Source: Hyalangium gracile (lineage in GTDB: Bacteria; Myxococcota; Myxococcia; Myxococcales; Myxococcaceae). From it: a stretch of DNA of 64,000 nt. The position numbers and the translations under genes are program-made. The notes under the pieces were generated by a model that was not told where the DNA came from, did no database searches, and was given only the letters and a program-made list of their open reading frames with translations. The stretch is from contig NZ_JAHXBG010000002.1 in the NCBI RefSeq assembly GCF_020103725.1, positions 62,001 to 126,000 of the forward strand, in the 5' to 3' direction. Of the stretch, positions 1 to 59,394 are shown piece after piece (the first letter of the stretch is position 1; each line of letters begins with the position of its first letter).

Positions 1-1917
1 GCGCGCGGTGAGCAGAAGGTGGAGCTGGCCTTCAGCCAGGTGCTCAACTACTCCAGCGGCCTCTACCACTACCACTACCCGCTGGGCGCCACGGCCAAGG
101 CGCAGCCCGCGGACTGGCGTCAGGTGGGCGGCACGGCGACGCGCGACTTCACCTTCAGCGCTCGCATCTCCAGCAAGACACCGCTGCGCAGCATCTACTC
201 TCCCACGCACCAGGTGGACGTCTCCCGCCGGGGCGAGGCCAGCGCCGTGGTCGGTATGGAGCAGGTGGGCGGCGCGGATCTCTCCAAGGATCTGGACCTC
301 TACTTCTCCGTCTCCGACAAGGCAGTGGGCCTGTCGCTGCTCACGTACAAGCAGGCCGACGAGCCCGGCTACTTCGTGGCCCTCATCACCCCGAAGACGG
401 AGGTCAGCCCCAACGAGATCGGCGCCAAGCGCGTCACCTTCGTCATCGACACCTCGGGCTCCATGCAGGGCGATCGGATGAAGATCGCCAAGGACGCGCT
501 CAGGTACTGCGTCACGCGGCTCAATGCCCAGGACACCTTCAACGTGGTGCGCTTCTCCACGGACGTGGAGCCGCTCTTCCCGGGGCTGAAGCAGGCCTCC
601 AAGGAGAACATCCAGAAGGCCGTCTCCTTCGTGGATCAGATGGAGGCCATCGGCGGCACGGCCATCGACGAGGCGCTGGTGCGCGGGCTCCAGGACAATG
701 ACGGCAAGTCCCCCACCCCGCACCTGCTGCTCTTCATCACCGACGGCCAGCCCACCATCGGCGAGACGGACGAGAGCGTCATCGCCCAGCACTCCAAGGA
801 GGGCCGCAAGACGAAGACGCGCGTGTTCACCTTCGGCGTCGGCGAGGATCTGAACGCGCGGCTGCTGGACCGGCTCTCCGCCGAGGGCAACGGCACCTCG
901 GACTTCGTCCGGGACGGCAAGGAGTTCGAGACCAAGATCTCCAGCTTCTACGACAAGGTGAGCAACCCGGTGCTGGCGGACCTGGCGCTCGATCTGTCCT
1001 CCATCGACGCGTACGATCTCTACCCGCGCAAGCTGCCGGATCTCTTCAAGGGGACGCAGGTGGTGGTGATGGGCCGCTACCGCAAGCCCGGCGACGCCAA
1101 GGTCGTCCTCACTGGCTACGTGAACAGCGACAAGCGCACGTTCGACTACGGCACCACGGCGCCCCGCGAGGCCACCCGGGACGACTTCATTCCCCGGCTG
1201 TGGGCCATCCGCAAGGTGGGCTTCCTGCTCGAGGAGATCCGCCTGCGCGGCGAGCGCCCCGAATTGCGCGACGAGGTGCTCGCGCTGGGCAAGAAGTTCG
1301 GCATCGTGACGCCCTACACCAGCTACCTGGTGGTGGAGGACGAGCCCCTCGCGGTCACCGGCCAGCCGCCCCCGCCGCCCGTCATCCGCCCGTGGGAGGA
1401 TCACCCGCCGCATCGTCACGAGAACCGCCCCATGCCGAAGGCGGAGGCCCGGGAAGCGGAGGACGACTTCGGCGATCTGTTCGGCGCGAGCCGTGGCCGC
1501 GCGGGAGGCGGCGCGAGCGGGGCCATGGCGCCCTCGGCCGCGGCGCCCGCTCCGGCCGAGTCCATGACGATGGCCGAGGGCAAGGGCGGCGTGGCCGTCT
1601 CCCGCGCGACGAAGAAGATGAAGGAGCAGGAGCGCGGCCCCTCGGCGAGCGATCCGGTGCGAGTGGCCGCGGGCCGGACGTTCATCTTCCGGGACGGCGG
1701 CTGGATCGACTCCGAGGCGCTCACCAGCCCAGGCAAGCAGCTCAAGGTGAAGTTCCTCTCCAAGGCCTACTTCGCGTTGCTCCAGGTGAAGCCGGAGCTG
1801 AAGGCGGCGTTCTCACTCGGAGACCGGGTGGTGGTGATGGTCTCCAAGGGGCGGAGCGTCATCGTCGGCCCGGACGGTGAGGAGGACGAGGCCAAGGCCC
1901 GCGCCTTCCTCAAGTAG
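1..1917 (+). CDS. VIT/VWA domain protein, 5' end outside the window
   Basis: The frame is open from base 1, so the true start lies upstream. The first ~110 visible residues look like the end of a VIT domain. A von Willebrand A domain follows with the MIDAS motif DTSGS at about 448-462, set in FVIDTSGSMQGDRM, and a downstream FITDGQP that carries the later metal-binding Asp. After the VWA domain comes a Pro/Ala/Gly-rich linker (about 1360-1650) and a small C-terminal domain. VIT-VWA proteins are usually surface or secreted binding proteins that use a metal ion at the MIDAS site. The signal peptide, if there is one, is not visible. A strong GC hairpin follows the stop. The family call is firm; the ligand is unknown. 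Confidence 0.88.
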   Translation, partial: ARGEQKVELAFSQVLNYSSGLYHYHYPLGATAKAQPADWRQVGGTATRDFTFSARISSKTPLRSIYSPTHQVDVSRRGEASAVVGMEQVGGADLSKDLDLYFSVSDKAVGLSLLTYKQADEPGYFVALITPKTEVSPNEIGAKRVTFVIDTSGSMQGDRMKIAKDALRYCVTRLNAQDTFNVVRFSTDVEPLFPGLKQASKENIQKAVSFVDQMEAIGGTAIDEALVRGLQDNDGKSPTPHLLLFITDGQPTIGETDESVIAQHSKEGRKTKTRVFTFGVGEDLNARLLDRLSAEGNGTSDFVRDGKEFETKISSFYDKVSNPVLADLALDLSSIDAYDLYPRKLPDLFKGTQVVVMGRYRKPGDAKVVLTGYVNSDKRTFDYGTTAPREATRDDFIPRLWAIRKVGFLLEEIRLRGERPELRDEVLALGKKFGIVTPYTSYLVVEDEPLAVTGQPPPPPVIRPWEDHPPHRHENRPMPKAEAREAEDDFGDLFGASRGRAGGGASGAMAPSAAAPAPAESMTMAEGKGGVAVSRATKKMKEQERGPSASDPVRVAAGRTFIFRDGGWIDSEALTSPGKQLKVKFLSKAYFALLQVKPELKAAFSLGDRVVVMVSKGRSVIVGPDGEEDEAKARAFLK

Positions 1918-1919
1918 TC

Positions 1920-1965
1920 CACCTCGAGGCCCCAGGCCCCTTCCGGGGGGCCTGGGGTTCAGGTG
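1920..1965 (+). terminator. GC-rich hairpin after the VWA gene
   Basis: A perfect 11-bp stem (1930-1940 with 1947-1957, loop TTCCGG) sits inside an outer CACCT/AGGTG stem, starting 3 bases after the stop codon. Only two T follow the inner stem, so this is either a weak intrinsic terminator or an RNA 3'-end stabiliser. Confidence 0.6.
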
Positions 1966-2066
1966 CCTGATGCTGCCTACCCTGCCGGTTGCGCCGAAAA
2001 AGTTCGGCCATGGCAGACTTGGGGTAGGACAGGGGGAAGGATCCAGGCCCCCCTGGGAGGCACCCG

Positions 2067-2675
2067 ATGACGGAGAAGCGGCAGCACCGGCGATTCAAGA
2101 AGAGGTACACGGTCCGGTTCGGCACGACTGATCTGTCAAAGCAAGGCATCACCGGGGACATCTCGAAGGGCGGAGCCTTCATCCTGACGCGGGACATGGT
2201 GCCGCTGGACACGCGGGTGCACCTGCAGGTGCAGCTGGATCCGAAGAACTTCGTGCTGTTCGAGGGCATCGTGCAGCGGCACCGCAAGGTGCCCGCCGAG
2301 CTGCGGCAGGTGGATCCGGGCGGCTTCGGCGTGCGCTTCCTCTACCCGGGCGAGGTGGTGGCCGACATCGTCAACAAGGACACCACCACCTTCGAGGTGC
2401 ACTACACCAACGCCGAGCAGCTCCAGGCCGCCTACGAGCGCGAGCTGCGCATGGGCGGCACGTTCATCCTCACGGAGAAGCCGCTGCGCATCCAGGACAA
2501 GGTCATCGTCTCGCTGTGCCTGGACTTCGCCAACGAGACGGTGGAGCAGGAGGCCGTGGTGGTGCACATCAGCCTGCCCCAGAGCACCACCCGGGCGGGC
2601 GTCTCCGTCATGTTCTCCGACAGGACCGCGCTGGAGGAGCAGCTCAAGCCCTTCCTGCCCCCACCCGCGAAGTAG
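2067..2675 (+). CDS. PilZ domain protein with two PilZ-like halves
   Basis: This 202-residue protein starts at an ATG with GGGAGG 7 bases upstream. The N-terminal half has the PilZ c-di-GMP signature: basic RR in QHRRFKKR (residues 5-13), then DISKGGAFI (about 31-39). The second half (about 105-200) repeats the fold in weaker form, with MGGTFILTEKPL, but lacks the Arg-rich entry motif. The family resembles the Myxococcus paralogous PilZ group (TIGR02266 as I recall). It has no signal peptide or membrane segment, so it is probably a cytoplasmic c-di-GMP effector. Only the first half appears able to bind nucleotide. The gene converges with the next one, leaving 10 bases between stops. Confidence 0.88.
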   Translation: MTEKRQHRRFKKRYTVRFGTTDLSKQGITGDISKGGAFILTRDMVPLDTRVHLQVQLDPKNFVLFEGIVQRHRKVPAELRQVDPGGFGVRFLYPGEVVADIVNKDTTTFEVHYTNAEQLQAAYERELRMGGTFILTEKPLRIQDKVIVSLCLDFANETVEQEAVVVHISLPQSTTRAGVSVMFSDRTALEEQLKPFLPPPAK

Positions 2676-2685
2676 CGGAAGGCGG

Positions 2686-3594
2686 CTACTGCGCCGACGC
2701 CGCGGTCAGCGTGAACGCCACACTCACCTGCTTGCCCGAGCCCACCGACACGGGCGCCGGGCTCGCCGGGTTGGTGGCGAACGTCACGCCGTCGGGGCCG
2801 ACGATGGCGGCGGAGAAGTCACCGGGGATGAGGAACTTGAACTGAGCCTCGAAGGTGCCGTCGCCGTTGGCATCCGTGAAGGCCACCGTCTCGGTGGTGT
2901 TGCCAGTGTTGGTGAGGGACGCCTTGAAGTCCGCCAGGGTGATGGCCTGATCGTTCACGGTGGGCAGCGTGACGCCAGCGGCCTTCGTGAGCGTCACCGT
3001 CACGGTGCCGCTGAAGGTGATCTCCGCGGCCTTGATGACGGGGCTCATCACCCAGCGGCCCGAGTTGCCCGCCTGCCGGCCGAAGCTCTGCGCCACGTCG
3101 AAGTCCACGAGGATGACCTTCTGCTCACCCTCCACGGAGACGGGATCGGCGATCTTCACCTTGAGGCCGGACTGGCCATAGCTGGGCATGTGCAGCTCGC
3201 CCGCCACCGAGGCGCTCGCGGGCAGGCCCTGGTAGTTCGGCGAGGAGGCGTAGATCTTCGTGGAGCCGTCCTCCTCCTCCACCTCGATGAAGGCGCCCGT
3301 GATGACGAAGCGCAGCTCCTTGTAGGTGCCTTCCGGAACGACCGCGTCCTTCACCAGATCCGCGGTGTCGTTCGCCAGGGTGAGCAGATCCGTCGTCTTC
3401 GGCTCCTTGAGCAGGACGACGCGGTTGTTCTCACCCTCGCCCAGCAGCTCGACCTCGGAGATGGTGACGACGGCGCGCTTGAAGTCGCCCGGAGCGTCGG
3501 TGAGCTTGATGGTGACCTTGCTCTCCCCTCCGCAGCCGATGAGGCCGAGCGCAAGGGTGATGAGGCAAGAAGCCAGGATGTGGACGCGTTGCAT
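2686..3594 (-). CDS. DUF4382 domain lipoprotein
   Basis: I chose the ATG at 3594 because GGAG lies 7 bases upstream and a lipoprotein signal follows immediately (MQRVHILASC, lipobox LIGC). The frame extends further upstream, but without a signal sequence. The product is 302 residues. The DUF4382 pattern is clear: KLTDAPGDFKRAVVTISEVEL near the N-terminus, then a threonine/aspartate beta-rich domain. The last ~100 residues form a separate beta domain with a calcium-like DANGDG loop. It is probably an outer-membrane or periplasmic binding protein. The function of DUF4382 is not known. Confidence 0.85.
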   Translation of the reverse strand: MQRVHILASCLITLALGLIGCGGESKVTIKLTDAPGDFKRAVVTISEVELLGEGENNRVVLLKEPKTTDLLTLANDTADLVKDAVVPEGTYKELRFVITGAFIEVEEEDGSTKIYASSPNYQGLPASASVAGELHMPSYGQSGLKVKIADPVSVEGEQKVILVDFDVAQSFGRQAGNSGRWVMSPVIKAAEITFSGTVTVTLTKAAGVTLPTVNDQAITLADFKASLTNTGNTTETVAFTDANGDGTFEAQFKFLIPGDFSAAIVGPDGVTFATNPASPAPVSVGSGKQVSVAFTLTAASAQ

Positions 3595-3758
3595 GGGGTT
3601 CTCCAGGTGGTTGCTTCGAACGTCGCCCGGAAGACCAGCGAACACGCCCGTCGGCCACGCACGCGGCGCCAGTGCTCACGGCCCGCGCACGCAACCTGGA
3701 GAACTTCCACGCCCTTGTACTTTCTGTCTCCACGCCTGAGACAGCCACACCCCAACGC

Positions 3759-3911
3759 CTACCTCTGACGAGCAGCCCAGACGGCCATCACCCCGAGCAG
3801 CGCCAGAGGCACCCCCGAGGAGGAGGAGCAGTCGCAGCCTCCCGGAGGAGGGACATCCGCCCAGGCGGCGGAGGACAGGAGCAGCGCGGAGACGAGGAGC
3901 AGTCGTTTCAT
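3759..3911 (-). CDS. 50-residue secreted microprotein with MYXO-CTERM-like tail
   Basis: This small ORF encodes a signal peptide (MKRLLLVSALLLSSAAWA, residues 1-18), six linker residues, GGCDCSSSS (residues 24-32), a hydrophobic stretch (VPLALLGVMAVWAA) and a basic end (RQR). Cys-Ser followed by a hydrophobic helix and Arg is the layout of MYXO-CTERM sorting tails, which in myxobacteria are handled by a dedicated rhombosortase-like protease. Here the mature part between signal and tail is almost absent. The ATG is 45 bp upstream of the RND permease stop on the same strand. I see no strong Shine-Dalgarno. The reading frame and signal peptide look real; expression is not proven. Confidence 0.6.
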   Translation of the reverse strand: MKRLLLVSALLLSSAAWADVPPPGGCDCSSSSGVPLALLGVMAVWAARQR

Positions 3912-3955
3912 GCCCCGAGCCTACGCGATGTCTCACGCTGTTAAGAACTGGCGGC

Positions 3956-6900
3956 TCAGCCCTGCGCGGGATGCACCTCGTCCTCCGACCGCTTCCGGCG
4001 ACGCCCGAGGAGCTGGCTCAGGCGCGTCCTGGCGCGATCCGCCACCACATAGAAGGCGGGGACCACGAGCAGGCTCAGCACGGTGGAGACGGAGAGGCCT
4101 CCGAGCACCGCGATGGCCATGGGCTGACGCGTCTCACTGCCCGCGCCCAGCGCCAGCGCCGCGGGCACCGCCGCCATCATCGTGGCGATGGACGTCATCA
4201 GGATGGGCCGCAGCCGCACCGGGCCCGCGCGCTGCATGGCCTCCACCGCGTCCGCGCCCTGCTCTCGCTGCTGCAGGGCGTAGTCCACCAGGATGATGGA
4301 GTTCTTCTTGACGATGCCCATCAGCAGCAACAGGCCGATCATGCTGAAGATGTTGAGCGTGGTGCCGGTGGCGAGCAGGGCGAACGCGGCGCCCGCCACG
4401 GACAGGGGGAGGATGGTGAGCACCGTCACCGGGTGCAGGAACGAGTTGAACTGCGAGGCGAGCACCATGTACGCCACGCCGATCCCCAGGAAGAGCGCGA
4501 ACAGCAGGCTGCTCATGGAGTCGCGGAAGGCCACGCTCGCGCCGCCGAGCACCACGCGGGTGCCGCCCGGCAGCTCCTTGGCGGTCTTCTCCACGAAGGC
4601 GATGGCCTCCTCCTGGCTCGAGTTCGGGGCCACGTTGGCGAAGATGCTGATGGCGCGCTCGCGATCCCGGCGGGTGATGGCCTGCAGCGCGGGGCGCTCC
4701 TCCTGCCGCACCAGGGACGAGAGCGGGATCAGCTCGCCGTTGCCGGTGCGGACCTTGAGCCGCGTCAGATCCTCCGGCCGCGAGCGCTGATCCGCCAGCA
4801 GCCGCAGCCGCACGTCGATGCGCCGGCCGCCGGAGTTGTACTTACCCACGCGCACCCCACCCACCAGGGAGTTGATCGTGGCGGCCACCGACTCGATGGA
4901 GACGCCCAGGTCCGCCGCGCGAGCCCGGTCCGGGGTGATGCGCAGCTCCGGCATGCCCAGCTGGTAGTCCGTGTCCACGTCCACCACCCTGCCGCTGGCC
5001 TGCAGCTTGTCACGCATCTCCTGGCTGGCCACCACCAGCTTCTCCCAGTCCGAGCCGCGCACGCTGAACTCCACCGGGAAGCCACGCTGCGCCGTGAAGC
5101 CGGCCTGGGACAGGTCCTGCACCACCGCGCGCAGGCCCGGGTACGAGTTGAGCTCCTTGCGCAGCAGCTGCTGGAACTCCGACTGGGGCATGCGCTGATC
5201 GGGAGGGACGAGGGTGATCATCACCATGCCCGTGTTCACCCCCGAGCCGCCCATGCCGCCCACGACCGCGAAGGTGCGTGTCACCTCCGGGCGGCTCGCG
5301 AGGAACGCCTCCGCCCGCTTGAAGAGCTGGTTCGTCTCCTCCAGGCTGCTGCCCACCGCCGTCTGCAGGCGCACCGTGAGCCGGCTCTGATCCTGCGAGG
5401 GGACGAACTCACCCTGCAGCGCGCGGAAGGCGAACGCCGAGGCGATCAGCATCACCGCCGCTCCGGCCAGCACCCACCACGGCCGCTTCAGCCCCTTGCC
5501 CAGCACGCGCCCGTAGAAGCCCTCGAGCCGCTCGAAGCCGCGGTCCACCCACTGCCCCACCCGCCCGCGGTGCTCGCGCGAGGCCTTGAGCAGCTGCGCG
5601 CAGCGCGCCGGCGCCAGGGTGATGGCCTCCAGGTACGACAGCAGCACCGCCACGCACAGGGTGACGCCGAACTGGAGGAAGAACTTGCCGATGATCCCCT
5701 TCATGAAGATGACGGGGATGAAGATGGCCACCACCGCCAGCGTGGCGGCCAGCGCCGCGAAGGTGATCTCCGAGGTGCCCTCGCGCGCGGCGCGCACCCG
5801 TTCCTTCCCCATCTCCGCGTGCCGGTAGATGTTCTCCAGCACCATGATGGCGTCATCCACCACGATGCCCACCGCCAGCGCCAGGCCCAGCAGCGTGAAG
5901 GTGTTGAGGGTGAAGCCCAGGAAGTAGATGGCCGCCACCGTCCCCAGCAGCGACATGGGGATGGCCAGCACCACGTTGAGCGTGCTGGACAGCGAGCCCA
6001 GGAACATCCAGCACACCAGCGCCGTGAGCAGGCAGGACAGCAGGAGCTCGATCTCGATCTCGTGGACGCTCTCCTCGATGAAGCGCGTCGAGTCGAAGTT
6101 GATGCCCAGCTGCATGCCCTCGGGCAGATCCTTGTTCAGCTCGGCCAGCGCGGCCCGCACGCCCTCCGCCACGGCCACCGCGTTGGCGCCGCGCTGCTTG
6201 CGGATGCCCAGGCCCTGCGCCGGGTTGCCGTCCACGCGCGACATGCGGCGCACGTCCTCGAAGCCGTCCTCCACCAGCGCCACGTCATTCAGGTACACCG
6301 TGTCCCCGTTCTGCTCCCGGACGACGATGTTGCGCAGCGTCTCGAGGTTCAGCGCCTCGCCCATCACCCGGACGTTGACCTCGCGGCCCTCCGTCTCGAT
6401 GCGGCCAGCGGGCAACTCCACGTGCTCGCGGTTCAGCGCGGCGATGACGTCCATGACGGTGAGCCCCTGGGCGTCCAGCTTCTGCGCGTCCACCCAGATG
6501 CGCACGTTGCGCTCCAGCGAGCCGCCCAGCGTCACCTCGCCCACGCCCTCTACCGTCTGCAGTTTCTCCTTGATGCGGTAGCGCGCGAAGTCGCTCAGCA
6601 CCTGCGGCGCGAAGGGACCGGACAGGCCAATCCACATGATGGGCTGATCCTCCGGGTTCGTCTTGGAGATGATGGGAGGATCCACGTCCTGCGGCAGCCG
6701 CCGCTGCGCCTGGCTCACCTTCGCCGTCACATCCTGCAGCGCCAGGTCCACGTTGCGTGACAGATCCAGCTCCACGGTGATGGAGCCGCCGCCCTGGCGC
6801 GCGTTGGAGGTGAGGGACTTGACGCCCTCCACCTGCATCACCGCCTCCTCGAGCGGCTCGATCAGATCGCTCTCCACGGACTCGGGAGAGGCGCCCTCCC

Positions 6901-51675: not shown

Positions 51676-53334
51676 ATGAGCTTCTTCCAGGAACCGCCCC
51701 GCCTCGGCAACCAGTACGATGATGATGCGCTGCTGCAGTCCTACCTCGCCCGCCAGCTCCCCGAGGAGCTGCGGCGCTCCGTGACGGAGGAGCTGCGGGA
51801 GCTGGGCGAGCTGAGCGGGAAGTACTTCTACGAGTTCCAGCTTCGGGATCGGCTGAACGAGCCGGTGCTGACGCAGTGGGACGCGTGGGGGCAGCGGGTG
51901 GATCGGATCGAGCTGACGCCGCTGTGGAAGGAGGCGGAGGCCCTCACGGCGAAGCGGGGCCTGGTGGCGGTGGCGTACGAGCAGAAGAGCGGCGCGCTGA
52001 GCCGGCTCCACCAGTTCGCGCTGAACTACGTGATCCAGCCGTCGCTGGACGTGTACTCGTGCCCGCTGGCGATGACGGACGGTGCGGCGCGGACGCTGCT
52101 GCAGCTGGGCAACCAGGAGCTGATTTCTCGCGCCCTGCCCCACCTGGCGTCGAGGGATCCGGCGACGTTCTGGACGTCGGGCCAGTGGATGACGGAGCGC
52201 ACGGGTGGCTCGGACGTAGGGCTGACGCAGACGGTGGCCAGGCAGACGCCGGAGGGCTGGCGGCTGTACGGGACGAAGTGGTTCACGTCGGCGACGACGT
52301 CGCAGATGGCGCTGACGCTGGCCCGGCCGGAGGGTAATGGGCCGGGCGGCAAGGGGCTGGCGCTGTTCTTCGTGGAGACGCGCAACGCGGACGGGCGGCT
52401 GAATGGCATCTTGATCAACCGGCTGAAGGACAAGCTGGGGACGAAGAAGGTGCCGACGGCGGAGCTGACGCTGGACGGGACGCTGGCGGTGCCGGTGGCG
52501 GGGCTGACGGACGGCATCCGGAACATGGCGTGGATGCTGAACGTGACGCGCACGTGGAACGCGATGGGCAGCGCATGGGCGATGCGGCGGGCGATGGCGC
52601 TGTCGAAGGACTACGCGACGCGGCGGGTGCAGTTCGGGGCGAAGCTGGCGGAGAAGCCGCTGCACGTGGACACGCTGGCGGGGATGGAGGCGGAGACGCA
52701 CGGGGCGTTCCTGATGGCGTTCCGGGCGGCGGAGCTGCTGGGGCGGATGGAGGCGAAGGTGGCGACCGAGGAGGAGCTGCTGCTGCAGCGCCTGGTGACG
52801 CCGCTGGCGAAGCTGACGACGGGCAAGCAGGTGGTGGCGACGACGTCCGAGGCGGTGGAGGGCTTCGGCGGGGCGGGCTACGTGGAGGACACGTACCTGC
52901 CGCGGCTGCTGGCGGACGCGCAGGTGCTGAGCATCTGGGAGGGCACGACGAACGTGCTGTCGCTGGATGCGCTGCGGGCGCTGGCGAAGGAAGGGACGCT
53001 GGACGTGTTCCACGCGGACGTGGAGCGGCGGCTGGCGACGGCGAAGGACTCGGGGCTGAAGCCGTGCGTGAGGGCGGCGGAGGATGCGCTGGAGCACGCG
53101 CGGAGCTGGGTGTCGGGCGCGCTGGCGAACCCGATGGGGCTGGAGGCGGGGGCGCGGCGGTTCTCGCTGACGCTGGGGCGGACGCTGGAGCTGGCGATGC
53201 TGGTGGAGCACGCGCAGTGGTGCCTGGACAACGGCCACGGGCCGCGGGTGCTGGCGGCGGCACGGCGGTTCACGCGGCACGGCGTGGACCTGATCTCGGA
53301 CATGGATCTGGATGACTCACGGCTGTTGGCATAG
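51676..53334 (+). CDS. AidB-like acyl-CoA dehydrogenase
   Basis: The 552-residue protein is longer than ordinary acyl-CoA dehydrogenases and follows AidB: an N-terminal extension (LGNQYDDDALLQSYL), MTERTGGSDV in the middle domain, RLKDKLGTKK, and the flavin region EGFGGAGYVEDTYLPRLLADAQVLSIWEGTTNV. E. coli AidB has dehydrogenase activity and binds DNA as part of the adaptive response to alkylation. Whether this protein does so is unknown. The stop is 9 bases before the next gene's TTG start, so read-through transcription into the nuclease-NTPase gene is likely. Confidence 0.9.
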   Translation: MSFFQEPPRLGNQYDDDALLQSYLARQLPEELRRSVTEELRELGELSGKYFYEFQLRDRLNEPVLTQWDAWGQRVDRIELTPLWKEAEALTAKRGLVAVAYEQKSGALSRLHQFALNYVIQPSLDVYSCPLAMTDGAARTLLQLGNQELISRALPHLASRDPATFWTSGQWMTERTGGSDVGLTQTVARQTPEGWRLYGTKWFTSATTSQMALTLARPEGNGPGGKGLALFFVETRNADGRLNGILINRLKDKLGTKKVPTAELTLDGTLAVPVAGLTDGIRNMAWMLNVTRTWNAMGSAWAMRRAMALSKDYATRRVQFGAKLAEKPLHVDTLAGMEAETHGAFLMAFRAAELLGRMEAKVATEEELLLQRLVTPLAKLTTGKQVVATTSEAVEGFGGAGYVEDTYLPRLLADAQVLSIWEGTTNVLSLDALRALAKEGTLDVFHADVERRLATAKDSGLKPCVRAAEDALEHARSWVSGALANPMGLEAGARRFSLTLGRTLELAMLVEHAQWCLDNGHGPRVLAAARRFTRHGVDLISDMDLDDSRLLA

Positions 53335-53343
53335 GTCGCCCTC

Positions 53344-56304
53344 TTGAAGCGGCACAGGCCCTCCAAGAAGAGCCTCGACCCAGCGGAAGCCAAGAAGGAG
53401 GTGGAAGAAGTCTTTTCCACCTACCGAAGTTCCCTGGCCAGCGCCCGAGACAACGAAGCAACGACTCGGATAACGCTGGTGGACAGGATTCTGGCTGCCG
53501 TCGGCTGGCAGCCAGAAGAGATTGATCGCGAAGTCCCCTCGGGAGTGGGGACATTTCTCGACTACGAGCTATGGGACAACGAGCGCCCGTGGATGCTGAT
53601 TGAGTCCAAGCGTGCGGGAGATCCGTTCAAGCTCGAATCCAGCGCCAGGTCGTCAACCACGACCGAGTTTCATGACATCGGCAGATTACTCCGAAGTGGA
53701 GGGCGCGATTTAAAGGAGGCATTCACCCAGGCCGCCGAGTACTGCAACAACTGTGGAATCCCCCTGGCTTGCATCACCAATGGGGTGCAGTGGCTCTTCT
53801 TCCGGGGACTCTCATCGCCTGATCGGCCCTGGCATCACGGCGTCGCGCTGACCTTCGCGACGATGGATGAGGTCATCAACCGGTTCGACACCTTCTTCAT
53901 GTCCATCGGGCGGACGTCCGCCGGGACCCAGCATCTCCTCCAGCATCTGGATCGCCCCTCTCCCGCGGCACCGCCCACCGCCTTCGTTCCCAACGAGTAC
54001 CTGAAAACGCGCAAGCCCGATCCCAACTCGCAGACGACACCTCATCTGCGCGCCGTTTGTGACTTCCTGCTAGGTGAGATTCACGGTGCCAATCGTCAGG
54101 AGATGATGCGGCATTGCTATATCGAGCCTGGCGTCGAGGCAGAGTTCGAGAAGAGCGTTCAGCGTCTGCTGCGTGACACCGCCCAGACGCTCGAGAGCAC
54201 TCACGACACCATTGCCCACGTGGACTCGAGACGCTTCGTCGAAGAGGTCTCCATCCAAGAGAGCTTGGCCAAAGCCCAGGACCCGATCGTCGTCGTCGGC
54301 CATGTCGGAGCCGGGAAGACCACCTTCCTCCATAAGTCCATTGCGCGATTCAGGGAGGATCACTCCGCCTTCTGTTCCATCATCAACCTTGAAGGTCATG
54401 GGCATGGAGGCAACCTCAACGCCGCCGAAGAAGAGAAGCGAGTTGCCGCCCAGATCCTGAAAGAGCTCCCTACGGCGGCCCGCGCCGTCCTCGCGCAGCG
54501 AGAGGATGTTTCCAGCGCCGAGAGAGAGCAGGCAGATCCCTTTCATGGCGAGACCCTGAAGAATCTCTTTCAAGAAGAGCTCGCGATAGAGCGGAGGCTG
54601 GGAGCCAAGGTCTGGGCTTCGAACCCAGCCGCATGGGATCAGAAGGAGTACGAGATCCTGGCGGCGTCTCGTCAGAATGTCGGTGAGCTGCTGTTTCGCT
54701 TCTTGCGTTATCTGCAGGAGCGTTTCCAGGACGCGGCCCAGCGCAAGTACCCGATCCTGGTGATGCTGGACAACCTCGATCAAGCCACTGACGAATATCA
54801 GCGATGTATCTACGGATTCGCGCAGCGGCTCTCCAGGGATACTCCCGCGGTCATCGTCATCTGCTTGCGCGAGGACACGTACGCACGAGGCAAGGAACCT
54901 GGGGGCTTCTTGACGTCCAGTTCCCTCCCCTTCGTCTTCCACGTGCCGGCTCCACCGCTGGACAAGATGCTCCGTCAGCGCGTGGAGTTTGGAGAGTACG
55001 CCTTGAGGCAGCGGCTGCTCCCGATGCCTTGGATGTACCAGCCGCCTGGAGTCCAGGAGGTCTGCAGGCTCCTGCGCACCGTGTTTCTCTCGTCAGGTTC
55101 CGAAGCACTGGAACTGCTGGCATGCCTCTGCGGCAACAGTATTCGCCAGGGACTCTCCCTCGTCCGGTCGGTGGTCCACGGGTCCACTGCCACGCGGGAG
55201 CAGCCCCACAGCGGAGCCGCCTATGCTCTCGAGTGCCTCTTATCGAGCCTTGGTCAGGAAGAGCTCAAACCGCTCCTGTTCAACTGCTTCGATGCCGATC
55301 CAGCAACTCCCCCGTATCACGCCCTGCGCGTTCGGATCCTCGGCTACTGCTCCTGGGCCTCCGCTTCCGTCAACGAGCGCCCATTGCTCGAGGCAACAGA
55401 TCAGATCCAGGGCCGGTTTGCCGAATGGGGCTACCCCGTAGCGATGGTGTACTCCGCCATCGATGCCCTGCTGACGGGCGGCATGCTAAAGCCCTTCGCT
55501 GAATCCGAGCGGGGCAAGTTCCGCAAGGGGGATCGGCTCCCCAGGCGGATAACCCTCACGGCTGCAGGCCATGCCCACATCTCCCGATTGCTCAGTCTGC
55601 CTGCATACAGGGCAGCCATGGCATGCATCACGCGCTGGTATGACGAAGACATGGGGAAGCACTTCGTGAAGCGCTCACAAAGAGGTGTGTCATCTGAGGG
55701 GGAACCTACTGTTGGCGACATCGTTGCATCGGGCGCGCTGGAGATCTTCGATGCTTATCTGAACCAGTTCGTTGCCCGGGAGGATCACCAGCTTGCGGCC
55801 CCTATCAAGACCCATACCTGGGCCATTGAGACCCTTTCTCGAGCCGCTCGCGTTGTCGCCAATCCCATTCATGACGTATCTCCAGGACACGTTGAAGTTA
55901 CCGTGGAGCAGTCGGGCACGACTCGTGCCGATGCCAGGCAAATGAATCTGGCGTTGAACCTGGATGAGCCCTCAGAACGCTCGGCTCTTCCCCGGCTTGG
56001 CGCGGGGATAGACTACAAAGGAAGCCAATACATTCCACGCATCCTGTGGGCGCTCGAATGGGCGCACCTGCATAAGGCCGGGCGGCTGTCGGCTGTTGGT
56101 ATCGCCAAGGTGCTCAAGACCCATTGCGACCTGGACGAGACTCCCTCCGGCGTCTCGAAAGCATTGAGCCTGCTCAAGGGGGATTCACGAGCCGTGGACT
56201 TCTGGGCCATGCTGGGACGCAGTTACGAGATAACGGCGGCTGGCCGTAAGGTTCTTCACGGGATCCTCGCCGCTCACTCCCGCTCGTCCCGACCCAGGAC
56301 CTGA
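53344..56304 (+). CDS. HsdR-type nuclease fused to P-loop NTPase and winged helices, candidate defence protein
   Basis: The 986-residue protein uses a TTG start (the frame has no ATG before residue 84). Residues 15-185 form a type-I-restriction-like PD-(D/E)XK nuclease with Asp73, Glu87, Lys89 (FLDYELWDNE, MLIESKRAG) followed by the QAAEYCNN and CITNGVQWLFF motif. A linker leads to a P-loop NTPase: Walker A GHVGAGKTT (319-327), Walker B ILVMLDNLDQ (471-480). C-terminal winged-helix-like segments lie near 720-790 and 920-980. The GC and codon use are lower and more mixed than in the flanking genes. It resembles STAND-type antiviral ATPases by layout, though no TPR sensor is present. Confidence 0.8.
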   Translation: MKRHRPSKKSLDPAEAKKEVEEVFSTYRSSLASARDNEATTRITLVDRILAAVGWQPEEIDREVPSGVGTFLDYELWDNERPWMLIESKRAGDPFKLESSARSSTTTEFHDIGRLLRSGGRDLKEAFTQAAEYCNNCGIPLACITNGVQWLFFRGLSSPDRPWHHGVALTFATMDEVINRFDTFFMSIGRTSAGTQHLLQHLDRPSPAAPPTAFVPNEYLKTRKPDPNSQTTPHLRAVCDFLLGEIHGANRQEMMRHCYIEPGVEAEFEKSVQRLLRDTAQTLESTHDTIAHVDSRRFVEEVSIQESLAKAQDPIVVVGHVGAGKTTFLHKSIARFREDHSAFCSIINLEGHGHGGNLNAAEEEKRVAAQILKELPTAARAVLAQREDVSSAEREQADPFHGETLKNLFQEELAIERRLGAKVWASNPAAWDQKEYEILAASRQNVGELLFRFLRYLQERFQDAAQRKYPILVMLDNLDQATDEYQRCIYGFAQRLSRDTPAVIVICLREDTYARGKEPGGFLTSSSLPFVFHVPAPPLDKMLRQRVEFGEYALRQRLLPMPWMYQPPGVQEVCRLLRTVFLSSGSEALELLACLCGNSIRQGLSLVRSVVHGSTATREQPHSGAAYALECLLSSLGQEELKPLLFNCFDADPATPPYHALRVRILGYCSWASASVNERPLLEATDQIQGRFAEWGYPVAMVYSAIDALLTGGMLKPFAESERGKFRKGDRLPRRITLTAAGHAHISRLLSLPAYRAAMACITRWYDEDMGKHFVKRSQRGVSSEGEPTVGDIVASGALEIFDAYLNQFVAREDHQLAAPIKTHTWAIETLSRAARVVANPIHDVSPGHVEVTVEQSGTTRADARQMNLALNLDEPSERSALPRLGAGIDYKGSQYIPRILWALEWAHLHKAGRLSAVGIAKVLKTHCDLDETPSGVSKALSLLKGDSRAVDFWAMLGRSYEITAAGRKVLHGILAAHSRSSRPRT

Positions 56305-56344
56305 CATATACCGAACCGACGGTGAAGCCACCCCGCCTCATGGG

Positions 56345-56875
56345 TTGGACGCATGGGGGCCAATCTGGCTCGTCATCGAGACGGACGAGCCGGTGGATTC
56401 CGTGGTCAGGAGCTGGCCCCCGAAGCTGCTCGGCCGAGTGGCCGACGAAGTGGTCGAGCACGAGCGCGTGCGCGCGTTGTTGCACCGAGGGTTTATCTCG
56501 ATGGATGTCTCTGGCGAGGACATGCCGGAGGCTTTGGTCACCACGGAGGAGCGCGTCGCGGTTCTGCTCGGGGTGGAGTCGAAGGGAATCGTGCCAGCGA
56601 TTCCCGCAGCCCCAGCCTCATGCATGCACCTCCAGGTCGACTCCCACCCTACAGGGACTCAGCCTCGGGTCCCGTCGGAGTTCCCGGCAAACCTGTCCTA
56701 CAAGCATACCGGTTCGGCAAGCGGCACTGCCGGGGGGCTGGCGTGGGTTCAGCCAGGGCTCACCGCTAGAGGTCACCGCGGTCCTGTTCCGGTCCCGGCG
56801 GGCGCACGTGCGCTCCAGCTCGCTTCCGCGCTGTCCAGGTGCTCCAGGAGCAGGGCGTTGATGCGGTCTGGATGA
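56345..56875 (+). CDS. Uncertain ORF downstream of the nuclease-NTPase gene
   Basis: The frame starts at TTG 56345. The first ~85 residues (IWLVIETDEPVDSVV, LLGRVADEVVEHERVRAL) look protein-like, but the rest drifts into Arg/Ser/Ala low complexity antisense to a hydrolase remnant. It could be the truncated 5' end of a gene or a short protein ending elsewhere. No family is recognised. It belongs to the disturbed 56305-57088 stretch. Confidence 0.25.
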   Translation: MDAWGPIWLVIETDEPVDSVVRSWPPKLLGRVADEVVEHERVRALLHRGFISMDVSGEDMPEALVTTEERVAVLLGVESKGIVPAIPAAPASCMHLQVDSHPTGTQPRVPSEFPANLSYKHTGSASGTAGGLAWVQPGLTARGHRGPVPVPAGARALQLASALSRCSRSRALMRSG

Positions 56876-57039
56876 TGCAGGGTGACACCATGGGAACCGT
56901 CGGGAATCTCCACGTATCGCGCCCCGGGAATGCCCTCCGCCAGCGCCTTACCCCCGTGCGGAGGCGCAATTCGATCGTGCGCGCCGCTTACGACCAGGGG
57001 CGGCCCCTCTCCGCCGGCGAGCCAGCTCAGCGTGCAGCC
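56773..57039 (-). pseudogene. Alpha/beta hydrolase, C-terminal fragment
   Basis: The minus-strand frame ends with a typical hydrolase tail: PPLVVSGAHDRIAPP (the acid Asp), then IPGARYVEIPDGSHGVTL (the catalytic His) and RINALLLEHLDSAE. There is no N-terminal domain or nucleophile elbow in any frame upstream, so this is a remnant of a full-length gene. The upstream part of the frame (to 57183) is unrelated. The region with no intact gene, 56305-57088, also holds the uncertain ORF above and no terminator that I can support. Confidence 0.65.
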
Positions 57040-57088
57040 ACGATGCGAGGTGGTCTGTCGAACGGGCGAGGGGGTCATGCGCGCTCTC

Positions 57089-57745
57089 TTAAAGTGTCCC
57101 GTGCCCGAGACGCAGAGTAACGGTGCTTGATGGTCCCGAAGAGAGACTTTCCTGTGCAGGCCCCGCATCTCCGATGCCACCATCTGCGGGAGAAGAATGG
57201 CCTCCCGTCACTCCTCCATCGCTTGTCTGCTGGAATGTTCGCACTACCCGGACACGATGCAGCCCGACGCACCTTCCCTCGAATGACATGAGCGACAGTT
57301 CGGCCTCAATACACTCGGGCCCCAAGCCACCCAGTTCTCTGGCGAAGAGTGGGAAGCGTATCGTGCTCCCATACCAGTATCCCGGCTCGAGAATGAGGAG
57401 ATCCTCCTCCCGGCCGCGAGGAGGGAACGCGTCCATGATGATGAACGGAACATTCTGGCGCGTTTGACAGTCGATGACCGAGTTCACATTCACGTCGATG
57501 TTCGAAAACAGCCGCTTGTCCAGGCGCAGGCGCTCCCCTTCGGCCCCAACCAGGAAGCGCCCGGAGAGGTACTCGCCGTCGTAATGAATCTCTTGAAGGT
57601 CCATCCTGGCGTGTGGCGGTCGTTGTCCGCAGTCGGCAAGGCGCTCCTGCTGCTTTGAAGGTGTGGTCGTACATGCCAGGAGCAGGGCCAGAACAGCGAT
57701 TCCGTACTGGAGGCAGAGAACCGGAGCGCGTCGCTGAGCCCTCAT
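57089..57745 (-). CDS. Lipoprotein of unknown function, coupled to lnt
   Basis: ATG 57745 overlaps the lnt stop by 4 bases. The 218-residue protein has a lipoprotein signal (lipobox ALLLAC, Cys after LALLLA) and a beta-rich mature part with YLSGRFLVGAEGERLRLDKRLF, several Cys (CQTRQN, ECIEAE, RCVGLH) and a Ser/Gly/Thr tail. No family is recognised. Because lnt adds the third acyl chain to lipoproteins, co-translation of a lipoprotein with it is unusual; the lipoprotein may simply share the operon. Confidence 0.72.
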   Translation of the reverse strand: MRAQRRAPVLCLQYGIAVLALLLACTTTPSKQQERLADCGQRPPHARMDLQEIHYDGEYLSGRFLVGAEGERLRLDKRLFSNIDVNVNSVIDCQTRQNVPFIIMDAFPPRGREEDLLILEPGYWYGSTIRFPLFARELGGLGPECIEAELSLMSFEGRCVGLHRVRVVRTFQQTSDGGVTGGHSSPADGGIGDAGPAQESLSSGPSSTVTLRLGHGTL

Positions 57746-59394
57746 GCCTTGCGGCCCGTCATTCGCCGACTGAGCAGCACCTGCGCCAGTAGCAGCACCA
57801 TCCCCAAGATCAGCGCCGTGGGACCGAACCAGTCTCCCCACGCCACCATCAACGTGCCGATGGGCGCCGTCGGCGGGATCGTCACCACCACTCCCGCTCG
57901 CTGGCCGGTCTGCACCTCCCGGACGATCTCTCCCGTCGGAGTGATGTAAGCCGAGATACCTGAGTTCGTCGCCCGCACCTGCGGCAGCCGCGTCTCGATG
58001 CTCCGGAACGCCGCCAGCGTCAGGTGCAGCTTCGGCCCCGCGGACGTCCCGAACCATGAGTCGTTCGAGAGCGTCACGATCAGCTCCGCGCCCTTACGCA
58101 CCGCCGCCGCTACGTAGTCCGGGAAGATGGCCTCGTAGCAGATGAGCGGCACCACCTTCAGCACCCTGCCTCCCCTTAAAGGGAAGCCGAACGATTGCGG
58201 CCCAGGCCCCCGCTTCCAGGTCCCCAGCCACGGCAGCATCCCGCGCACCCACGGCTTGTCCAGCGACTCCGGCACCCACTCCGTCAGCGGGAAGAGCTTC
58301 GTCTTGCGATAGACGCCGAGCTCCAGCCGCTTCTCCTCTGGAGTCCCCACCGGGCCCAGGAACATCGCCGCGTTGTACTCGCGATCCTGCTCCAGATCGT
58401 ACGCCCCGAAGATCAGCGGCATCTGGCGCTCGCCCACGAACTGCGACAGATCCTGATCGAACTCCGCCCCTTCCTCGCTCTTCGGCGAGCCGAACGTCGT
58501 CGGGTACACCGTCTCCGGCCACACGATCAGATCCGGCTTCGTGTCCTTCATCAGCTCGTCGGAGAGCTGGTAGTGCGTGTCCAGGATCATCCGCAGCGCG
58601 TCGTACGTCCCCATCTCCGCCGCCAGCCGGCCGTACTGCGTGATGTTCGACTGCACCACGCCTACCGTGAGCCCCGGTCCCGTCCCCACCTGCTCGCTCA
58701 CCTGTCGATACCGGATGGCTCCGTAGCCGGTGAGCACCACCACCAGCGCCACCAGCACCGCCGCGGGAGTTCGCAGCTCCCTCGCGCCAGGCCACTTCCA
58801 TCCCCGAGCCGAGAACGCCTTCACCGCCGCCAGCACGCACTCGTTGCCCAGGATGAGCGCCACCGTGAGGCCATGCGCCCCCGCGATGTCCGCGCCCTGC
58901 CGCAGCCAGACGGAGCTGTAGAGCCCCTGCCCCAGCGTGTCCGCGAAGAGCTTGGGCCACGCCCACTCCGTGCCCACGTACACCAGCGCTCCCGTCAGCC
59001 CCACGCGCAGGAACGCTCCCTCCGGCGCCATCCGCCGCGCCAGGTGTCGGGCCAGCGCCGCGAAGATGAACTGCGGCTGCATGAACGGCCCGAACGACAG
59101 CAGCACGAGCCAGAACATCCACAGGTCCGAGGACTGGGCATACGCCCCCAGCGCATCCGCGAACCACCCGAAGATCACTCCCGTGAAGACGACGCTGAGA
59201 ACCAGCCCTGCCGCCAGCGTCTGCCACACCGTCCGAGCCCGATCGAGCACCGCCAGCCACGGCACCAGCGCCACCCAACCCAACCAGACCCAAGCCGCCT
59301 CGATCCGCCCGAACAGCCACACCCCCAACGAGGTCGCCACGGCCGCGAGGAACATCTCCCCGAACCGCCGCCCCGCCGACAGCTCCACGCTCAT
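57742..59394 (-). CDS. lnt: Apolipoprotein N-acyltransferase
   Basis: The 550-residue protein has N-terminal membrane helices (about 10-230) and a periplasmic nitrilase-like domain. The catalytic triad is Glu294 (LIVWPETVYP), Lys366 (VYRKTKLFPL) and Cys419 (VPLICYEAIFPD), matching the E. coli order E-K-C. A final membrane helix follows (about 520-545). It N-acylates the lipid-bearing Cys of outer-membrane lipoproteins, which this genome encodes in quantity. It overlaps the upstream 59391 gene's ATGA and the downstream lipoprotein gene. Confidence 0.94.
   Translation of the reverse strand: MSVELSAGRRFGEMFLAAVATSLGVWLFGRIEAAWVWLGWVALVPWLAVLDRARTVWQTLAAGLVLSVVFTGVIFGWFADALGAYAQSSDLWMFWLVLLSFGPFMQPQFIFAALARHLARRMAPEGAFLRVGLTGALVYVGTEWAWPKLFADTLGQGLYSSVWLRQGADIAGAHGLTVALILGNECVLAAVKAFSARGWKWPGARELRTPAAVLVALVVVLTGYGAIRYRQVSEQVGTGPGLTVGVVQSNITQYGRLAAEMGTYDALRMILDTHYQLSDELMKDTKPDLIVWPETVYPTTFGSPKSEEGAEFDQDLSQFVGERQMPLIFGAYDLEQDREYNAAMFLGPVGTPEEKRLELGVYRKTKLFPLTEWVPESLDKPWVRGMLPWLGTWKRGPGPQSFGFPLRGGRVLKVVPLICYEAIFPDYVAAAVRKGAELIVTLSNDSWFGTSAGPKLHLTLAAFRSIETRLPQVRATNSGISAYITPTGEIVREVQTGQRAGVVVTIPPTAPIGTLMVAWGDWFGPTALILGMVLLLAQVLLSRRMTGRKA

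Follow-up and report, generated by a model that had tools for sequence, protein, structure and literature searches.

A 64,000-nucleotide stretch of the Hyalangium gracile genome (contig NZ_JAHXBG010000002.1, positions 62,001 to 126,000; hereafter the window) raises the question of what a solitary gene, encoding a nuclease fused to an ATPase, does for its bearer. The gene spans 53344..56304 on the plus strand, begins with a TTG start codon, and encodes a 986-residue single-chain nuclease-ATPase, P0001. The initial annotation had placed this open reading frame 9 bp behind an AidB-like gene and proposed it as a single-gene anti-phage candidate. The frame, its length and its position were all confirmed, and the residues named at that stage are present in the protein: D73, E87, K89, QAAEY (129–133), TNGVQW, and the P-loop GHVGAGKTT (319–327). 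P0001 probably serves in defence against invading DNA, and we put at about even the chance that it belongs to a mobile family of single-gene immune nucleases. This assessment is based on the conserved nuclease and ATPase, the patchy and mobile spread of the family, the solitary character of the gene, and its location in a slot for conflict-type cargo.

The N-terminal part of P0001 (approximately residues 13–190; 53380..53913, plus strand) was identified as an HsdR-type PD-(D/E)XK nuclease from family profiles, catalytic residues and a match to a solved HsdR. Conservation was assessed on the 47 non-redundant sequences among 58 frames of at least 700 amino acids that match the family profile. 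One row is masked across the nuclease, and in the 46 readable rows the aligned catalytic residues D73, E87 and K89 (codons 53560–53562, 53602–53604 and 53608–53610, plus strand) are always kept, as is Y133, with Q129 present in 35 rows and replaced by E in 11. Among the 31 family members scanned against Pfam, HSDR_N was found in 15 and HSDR_N_2 in 12, the best relatives reaching an E-value of 4.1e-14. P0001 alone scores below the Pfam cut-offs (17 bits versus 25.1 for HSDR_N; 16 versus 25 for HSDR_N_2), but its catalytic residues nevertheless align, and its sequence profile matches the solved HsdR subunit (3h1t) at an E-value of 0.0018. A search of BFVD recovered one phage protein whose name refers to an HsdR N-terminal domain (E-value 1.3e-3), besides many clamp loaders. 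The likeness to type I restriction lies in this N-terminal nuclease family; membership in such a system was rejected, as the Pfam scan listed no SF2 helicase family in the P0001 chain and neither hsdM nor hsdS was found among the ten window frames scanned.

The second conserved domain is an AAA+ ATPase of the Orc/Cdc6-TnsC type (approximately residues 295–613; 54226..55182, plus strand), an assignment drawn from AAA_16, fold matches and conservation. AAA_16 matches P0001 at an E-value of 6.3e-9 and was found in 19 of the 31 members. On the plus strand, Walker A lies at 54298–54324 (K325), Walker B D476 at 54769, and a GDxR-type arginine, R601, at 55144. K325, D476, N477, D479, P537, R546 and R601 are retained in all 47 sequences of the conservation set, and R509 in 44. 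The GDxR arginine, together with the P and R stretch preceding it, is typical of Orc/Cdc6 ATPases. Structural comparison of the ATPase model by VIA returned as its top match a chain of the Drosophila ORC-Cdc6-DNA complex (7jgr_G; Z 15.8, root-mean-square deviation 3.8, 257 residues aligned), followed by archaeal Cdc6 (1fnn_A; Z 14.9) and then TnsC (7ufi_1; Z 14.3), placing the Orc/Cdc6-type fold at Z 14–15.8 across about 255 residues of a model of middling quality. Foldseek matches to the P0001 model are chiefly ORC and Cdc6, and a chain of the BrxC-BrxB-PglZ complex (9zll_B) appears at an E-value of 6.2e-5. The sequence profile, searched against solved structures, gave mostly P-loop matches to unrelated proteins, with TnsC at an E-value of 0.0058. 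P0001 thus shares its nearest fold and the GDxR-type arginine with Orc/Cdc6 initiators and TnsC, and differs from them by its nuclease fusion; we found no evidence for a role in replication or transposition. The same ATPase class is represented in BREX by BrxC and BrxD, which the excerpted text of PMC12839542 describes as Orc-Cdc6 AAA+ proteins, but BREX is a multi-gene system with a methyltransferase, whereas P0001 is encoded by a lone gene.

Beyond the ATPase, a winged helix is predicted at approximately residues 661–749 (55324..55590, plus strand), with predicted local distance difference test (pLDDT) values across the block of 68–92 in a separate C-terminal model and 55–88 in the full model. 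Taken alone, it gives weak VIA matches (Z 6–7, at most 6.7), MarR, PadR and Orc-type domains being some of the targets, and Foldseek of the C-terminal model returned nothing at E-values up to 0.001 (best 0.3). Because these searches gave no strong match, the call rests on predicted topology and confidence. The initial annotation had envisaged several C-terminal winged helices; this one survives as a prediction, whereas residues 841–986 or thereabouts are predicted poorly and include a tail for which no relatives were found in the phylum. That tail (approximately residues 860–986; 55921..56301, plus strand) replaces the S1 or cold-shock domains, or the plain end, of other members. Past position 790, 31 of the 47 members carry 59–89 residues, 12 carry 142–160 and form a longer subfamily, three plasmid members carry 203–220, and P0001 carries 197. 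Pfam S1 was found in six of the 31 members scanned, presumably all from the seven long members in that sample. Cold-shock domains match two of eight members, with a third plasmid member alike by eye, and the annotation of two plasmid relatives names a cold-shock domain. We infer that the C-terminal end is an exchangeable reader. A comparable pairing of cold-shock-like OB folds with an NTPase and nucleases is described for CoCoNuT systems in the excerpted text of PMC11090510, though these differ by their McrB-type GTPases, coiled coils and several genes.

Every one of the 31 members scanned matches phrog_14719, a PHROGs v4 cluster of unknown function; P0001 does so at an E-value of 2.4e-42 over residues 16–554 and differs by its additional orphan tail. 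Relatives occur in three of 195 genomes of the phylum, P0001's own included, and in one of seven genomes of the genus. Plasmid records with relatives number 25 with P0001 as the query and 27 with a Klebsiella relative. DNA similarity to the Klebsiella gene was detected in eight of 5,426 Escherichia coli genomes, two of which resemble one strain deposited twice. The E. coli relative lies in the Rac prophage (L017 and L018; two records opened; 14977–17451 in L018), reversed with respect to its neighbours, between DUF1367 and DUF977 genes. Pattern searches added 27 viral contigs with relatives (from 94 matches) and at least 20 genome-contig loci, one of them labelled archaeal (among at least 595 matches). 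A scan of viral sequences with P0001 as the sole query gave no hit, and four family queries against 50,697 phage records were likewise negative. The proposal of a single-gene anti-phage candidate is thus strengthened by patchy presence, sites that are empty in congeners, and relatives on plasmids and prophages, but P0001 is not the one-off it had appeared to be.

This distribution also bears on whether the family serves its vehicles instead of the host, cutting rival DNA for superinfection exclusion, plasmid competition or element maintenance. Among 18 loci of relatives that were inspected, 17 are annotated, and in 13 of these the stretch read includes a transposase, integrase or recombinase. 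The sample is biased towards mobile DNA, since 15 of the 17 derive from a plasmid collection with an incomplete gene table and the other two represent a single E. coli locus. No constant partner gene was found in the 17. When 29 bait proteins were run against 47 loci on viral and genome contigs, at least 21 gave a hit to a phage gene or to an integrase, transposase or recombinase. The long subfamily with S1 ends shows a tyrosine integrase 5.7–8.2 kb upstream of the gene at nine of 15 loci (L033, L037–L041, L043–L045), as if these genes held a fixed place within one prophage type. Such a mobile-element function accords with the plasmid and prophage setting and the integrase spacing. Against it, no element was seen in the stretches examined around the window copy, the other two copies of the phylum and several genome contigs, and in the genome contigs taken separately the baits place a mobile or phage gene at at least five of 20 loci; on balance we regard it as rather improbable. 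Some copies are broken, as expected of costly cargo: an insertion sequence disrupts one, and those of L028, L062, L032 and L064 (the last two nearly identical) are each split into two frames.

The setting of the P0001 gene provides the remaining evidence. Its GC content is 60.6%, where stretches as long as the gene taken outside the insert have 69.9% on average and at least 67.2%, and its GC at third codon positions is 0.72, against 0.90–0.955 for four neighbouring genes, the 64-kb window alone serving as the reference; the atypical composition noted initially is thus confirmed. The gene occupies a variable slot (53335–57741) between an aidB-like acyl-CoA dehydrogenase gene on the left (51676..53334, plus strand; AidB_N, E-value 4.9e-13) and an lnt-like apolipoprotein N-acyltransferase gene on the right (57742..59394, minus strand). 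These two border genes are convergent and no more than 5.2 kb apart in all seven genomes of the genus. They abut in three of them (G095, G097 and G098), where the protein matches end within 30 bp of each other or overlap, and are separated by 437 bp in G101, of another genus. The other four genomes of the genus hold 3.8–5.2 kb between them, each with different cargo, which in the window genome includes the P0001 gene. Patchy presence, foreign composition and empty sites in congeners support horizontal acquisition of the gene.

The cargo of the other occupied slots is of a kind associated with biological conflict. In G100 (L080), the slot carries a SitA5-family toxin (E-value 6.6e-97, with an AHH nuclease domain), an Imm11/SUFU gene and a glyoxalase-like gene; SitA toxins are typical of myxobacteria. 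L081 holds a DUF4062 gene (E-value 4.5e-25) with an epoxide-hydrolase-like gene and others, and L082 an operon with an nSTAND-type ATPase (E-value 1.4e-10) at about 50% GC. The sequence downstream of the P0001 gene, initially described as decayed, is indeed so: 56369..56590 (plus strand) is 75% identical in DNA to part of the Imm11/SUFU immunity gene that is intact in G100. Because the window keeps this remnant, the P0001 gene probably entered a slot that formerly held the toxin pair.

The same comparison bears on the idea that P0001 is a partner of AidB in an alkylation-damage response. The two genes are separated by only 9 bp, from the aidB-like stop to the TTG, and share a reading frame; in addition, the relative in L055 is accompanied, at a distance of 2.4 kb, by a frame resembling acyl-CoA dehydrogenases, which matches the AidB bait with an E-value of 6.3e-20. 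However, aidB is present in seven of seven genomes of the genus and the P0001 gene in one, so a conserved position next to AidB did not emerge. An acyl-CoA dehydrogenase is listed in none of the 17 annotated loci, and the composition of the P0001 gene is foreign. With aidB and lnt also directly abutting in three congeners, a conserved partnership was rejected, and we hold an AidB-linked role to be highly improbable.

How such a protein might act is suggested by its domains. In the presence of ATP, P0001 would form a ring or a short filament on double-stranded DNA, in the manner of Orc/Cdc6 and TnsC; the winged helix would hold the assembly on DNA, and the C-terminal end (S1, cold-shock or, here, the orphan tail) may help to recognise some feature of the invading nucleic acid, for example replication intermediates, transcripts or single-stranded stretches. 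The nuclease domains, brought together by assembly, would then cut the invading DNA. We lean towards an ATP-controlled nuclease that cuts the invader's DNA as it replicates. In its boldest form, which we hold to be less likely than not, the scheme would make P0001 a one-protein restriction machine, an Orc/Cdc6-like ring on invading DNA with exchangeable readers, operating without a methylation mark, guide or partner gene. Alternatively, the winged helix or the tail could read modified bases, with the ATPase licensing cutting, as in modification-dependent (type IV-like) restriction. The combination of nuclease and ATPase, the lack of a linked methyltransferase at the window, and the annotation of one relative as a predicted type IV restriction endonuclease would suit such a role; yet no modified-base reader was detected in P0001 or the 31 members scanned, and no match seen makes the ATPase McrB-like, leaving it quite improbable.

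Several observations weigh against an immune nuclease built on an Orc/Cdc6-like ATPase. The full P0001 structure model, predicted from 31 sequences, is of middling quality (mean pLDDT 70.8; predicted template-modelling score 0.55), and its Foldseek TM-scores by query are only 0.16–0.21, low because one domain alone matches. PADLOC matches are partial: over the 31 members the best are DrmMI (3.5e-8) and type IIG enzymes (5.4e-8), the commonest models being type IIG enzymes (13), mad8 (12) and DrmMI (9), and the best match of P0001 itself is mad8 at 0.0035. Restriction-modification genes occur in two of the 17 annotated loci, a set drawn mostly from plasmids, which makes for a weak association with defence islands. 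PADLOC also gave no convincing match for eight cargo proteins of the other slots, so it is the toxin pair and the domain types that justify calling them conflict genes. For the orphan tail, no relatives were found in the 195 genomes of the phylum; three weak matches besides the tail itself (best E-value 7.6e-4) looked on inspection like an implausible frame next to an oxidase-like gene, a large protein resembling oxidoreductases and a further frame of doubtful standing (names by eye), and were taken as chance. Finally, nSTAND_NTPase5 was found in 21 of the 31 members (E-values up to 0.01), P0001 itself scoring 22.5 bits against a cut-off of 34, and the STAND-like CED-4, NRC4 (a plant resistosome) and RdrA also appear among the fold matches, somewhat lower.

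These last points, with AAA_16 in the members noted above and the treatment of STAND and Orc/Cdc6 ATPases as related in the excerpted text of PMC12839542, favour an Avs-like sensor: a STAND switch whose C-terminal half recognises a phage protein, whereupon the protein oligomerises and the nuclease destroys DNA within the cell in an abortive response. P0001 does resemble Avs and other STAND nuclease-NTPase proteins in combining an N-terminal nuclease, a central ATPase and a variable C-terminal part in one chain. It departs from them in that Orc/Cdc6 and TnsC head the fold rankings and the Orc/Cdc6-typical GDxR arginine is invariant. NCBIfam Avs4 reaches only 8 bits against a cut-off of 1500 (E-value 0.33), the Avs models in PADLOC gave no match at E-values up to 1, and no TPR family was found in P0001 up to the same value, a winged helix and helices being predicted in its C-terminal half. 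Membership in Avs was rejected on these grounds, and the earlier view of an Avs-like protein with winged helices in place of TPRs was not supported. A winged helix following the ATPase is usual in Orc/Cdc6, so no TPR replacement needs to be invoked. The modelled ATPase class argues for assembly on DNA over Avs-like protein sensing, a difference of degree between related classes, and we judge an Avs-like sensor unlikely.

The immune-nuclease reading would give a place to a one-gene fusion of an HsdR-type nuclease and an Orc/Cdc6-like ATPase that has no assigned function in the libraries searched. Nuclease-ATPase immune proteins are already known; this family spans plasmids, prophages and several phyla, with differing nucleic-acid-binding ends. 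If it protects, initiator-type ATPases would be tied directly to restriction, in a compact system whose rule for self and non-self could be mapped by exchanging ends, and the Rac-prophage relative makes the family testable in a standard E. coli laboratory strain. Among the papers that literature searches brought up, we recognised none describing the family, although the E. coli units validated with DefensePredictor may include a relative: PMC13092281 reports 42 validated units and, for 31 of these, PD-(D/E)XK domains in 13 and P-loops in seven. A table of PMC10952713 lists PD-T4-4 with both a PD(D/E)XK and a P-loop domain.

Further features of the aidB-lnt slot were recorded alongside. In a sample of 76 genomes from beyond the genus and within it, covering the wider family, searches detected aidB in 44, lnt in 46 and both in 42; in the pairs compared outside the genus and G101, the two genes lie on different contigs or at least about 199 kb apart. 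Small lipoprotein-like frames occur beside lnt in the slots of three genomes and appear to be duplicated in L081 (1763–3563); the corresponding stretch of the window (57201..57664, minus strand) resembles such a frame in the G100 slot (79%) and in the G099 slot (72%), the lipoprotein character being judged by eye. The L082 operon (1822–6205, minus strand) consists of three genes at about 50% GC within a genus of about 70% GC, encoding the nSTAND-type ATPase, whose start looks SIR2-like by eye, and proteins of 636 and 309 amino acids without convincing Pfam matches; it is a candidate for an undescribed conflict system.

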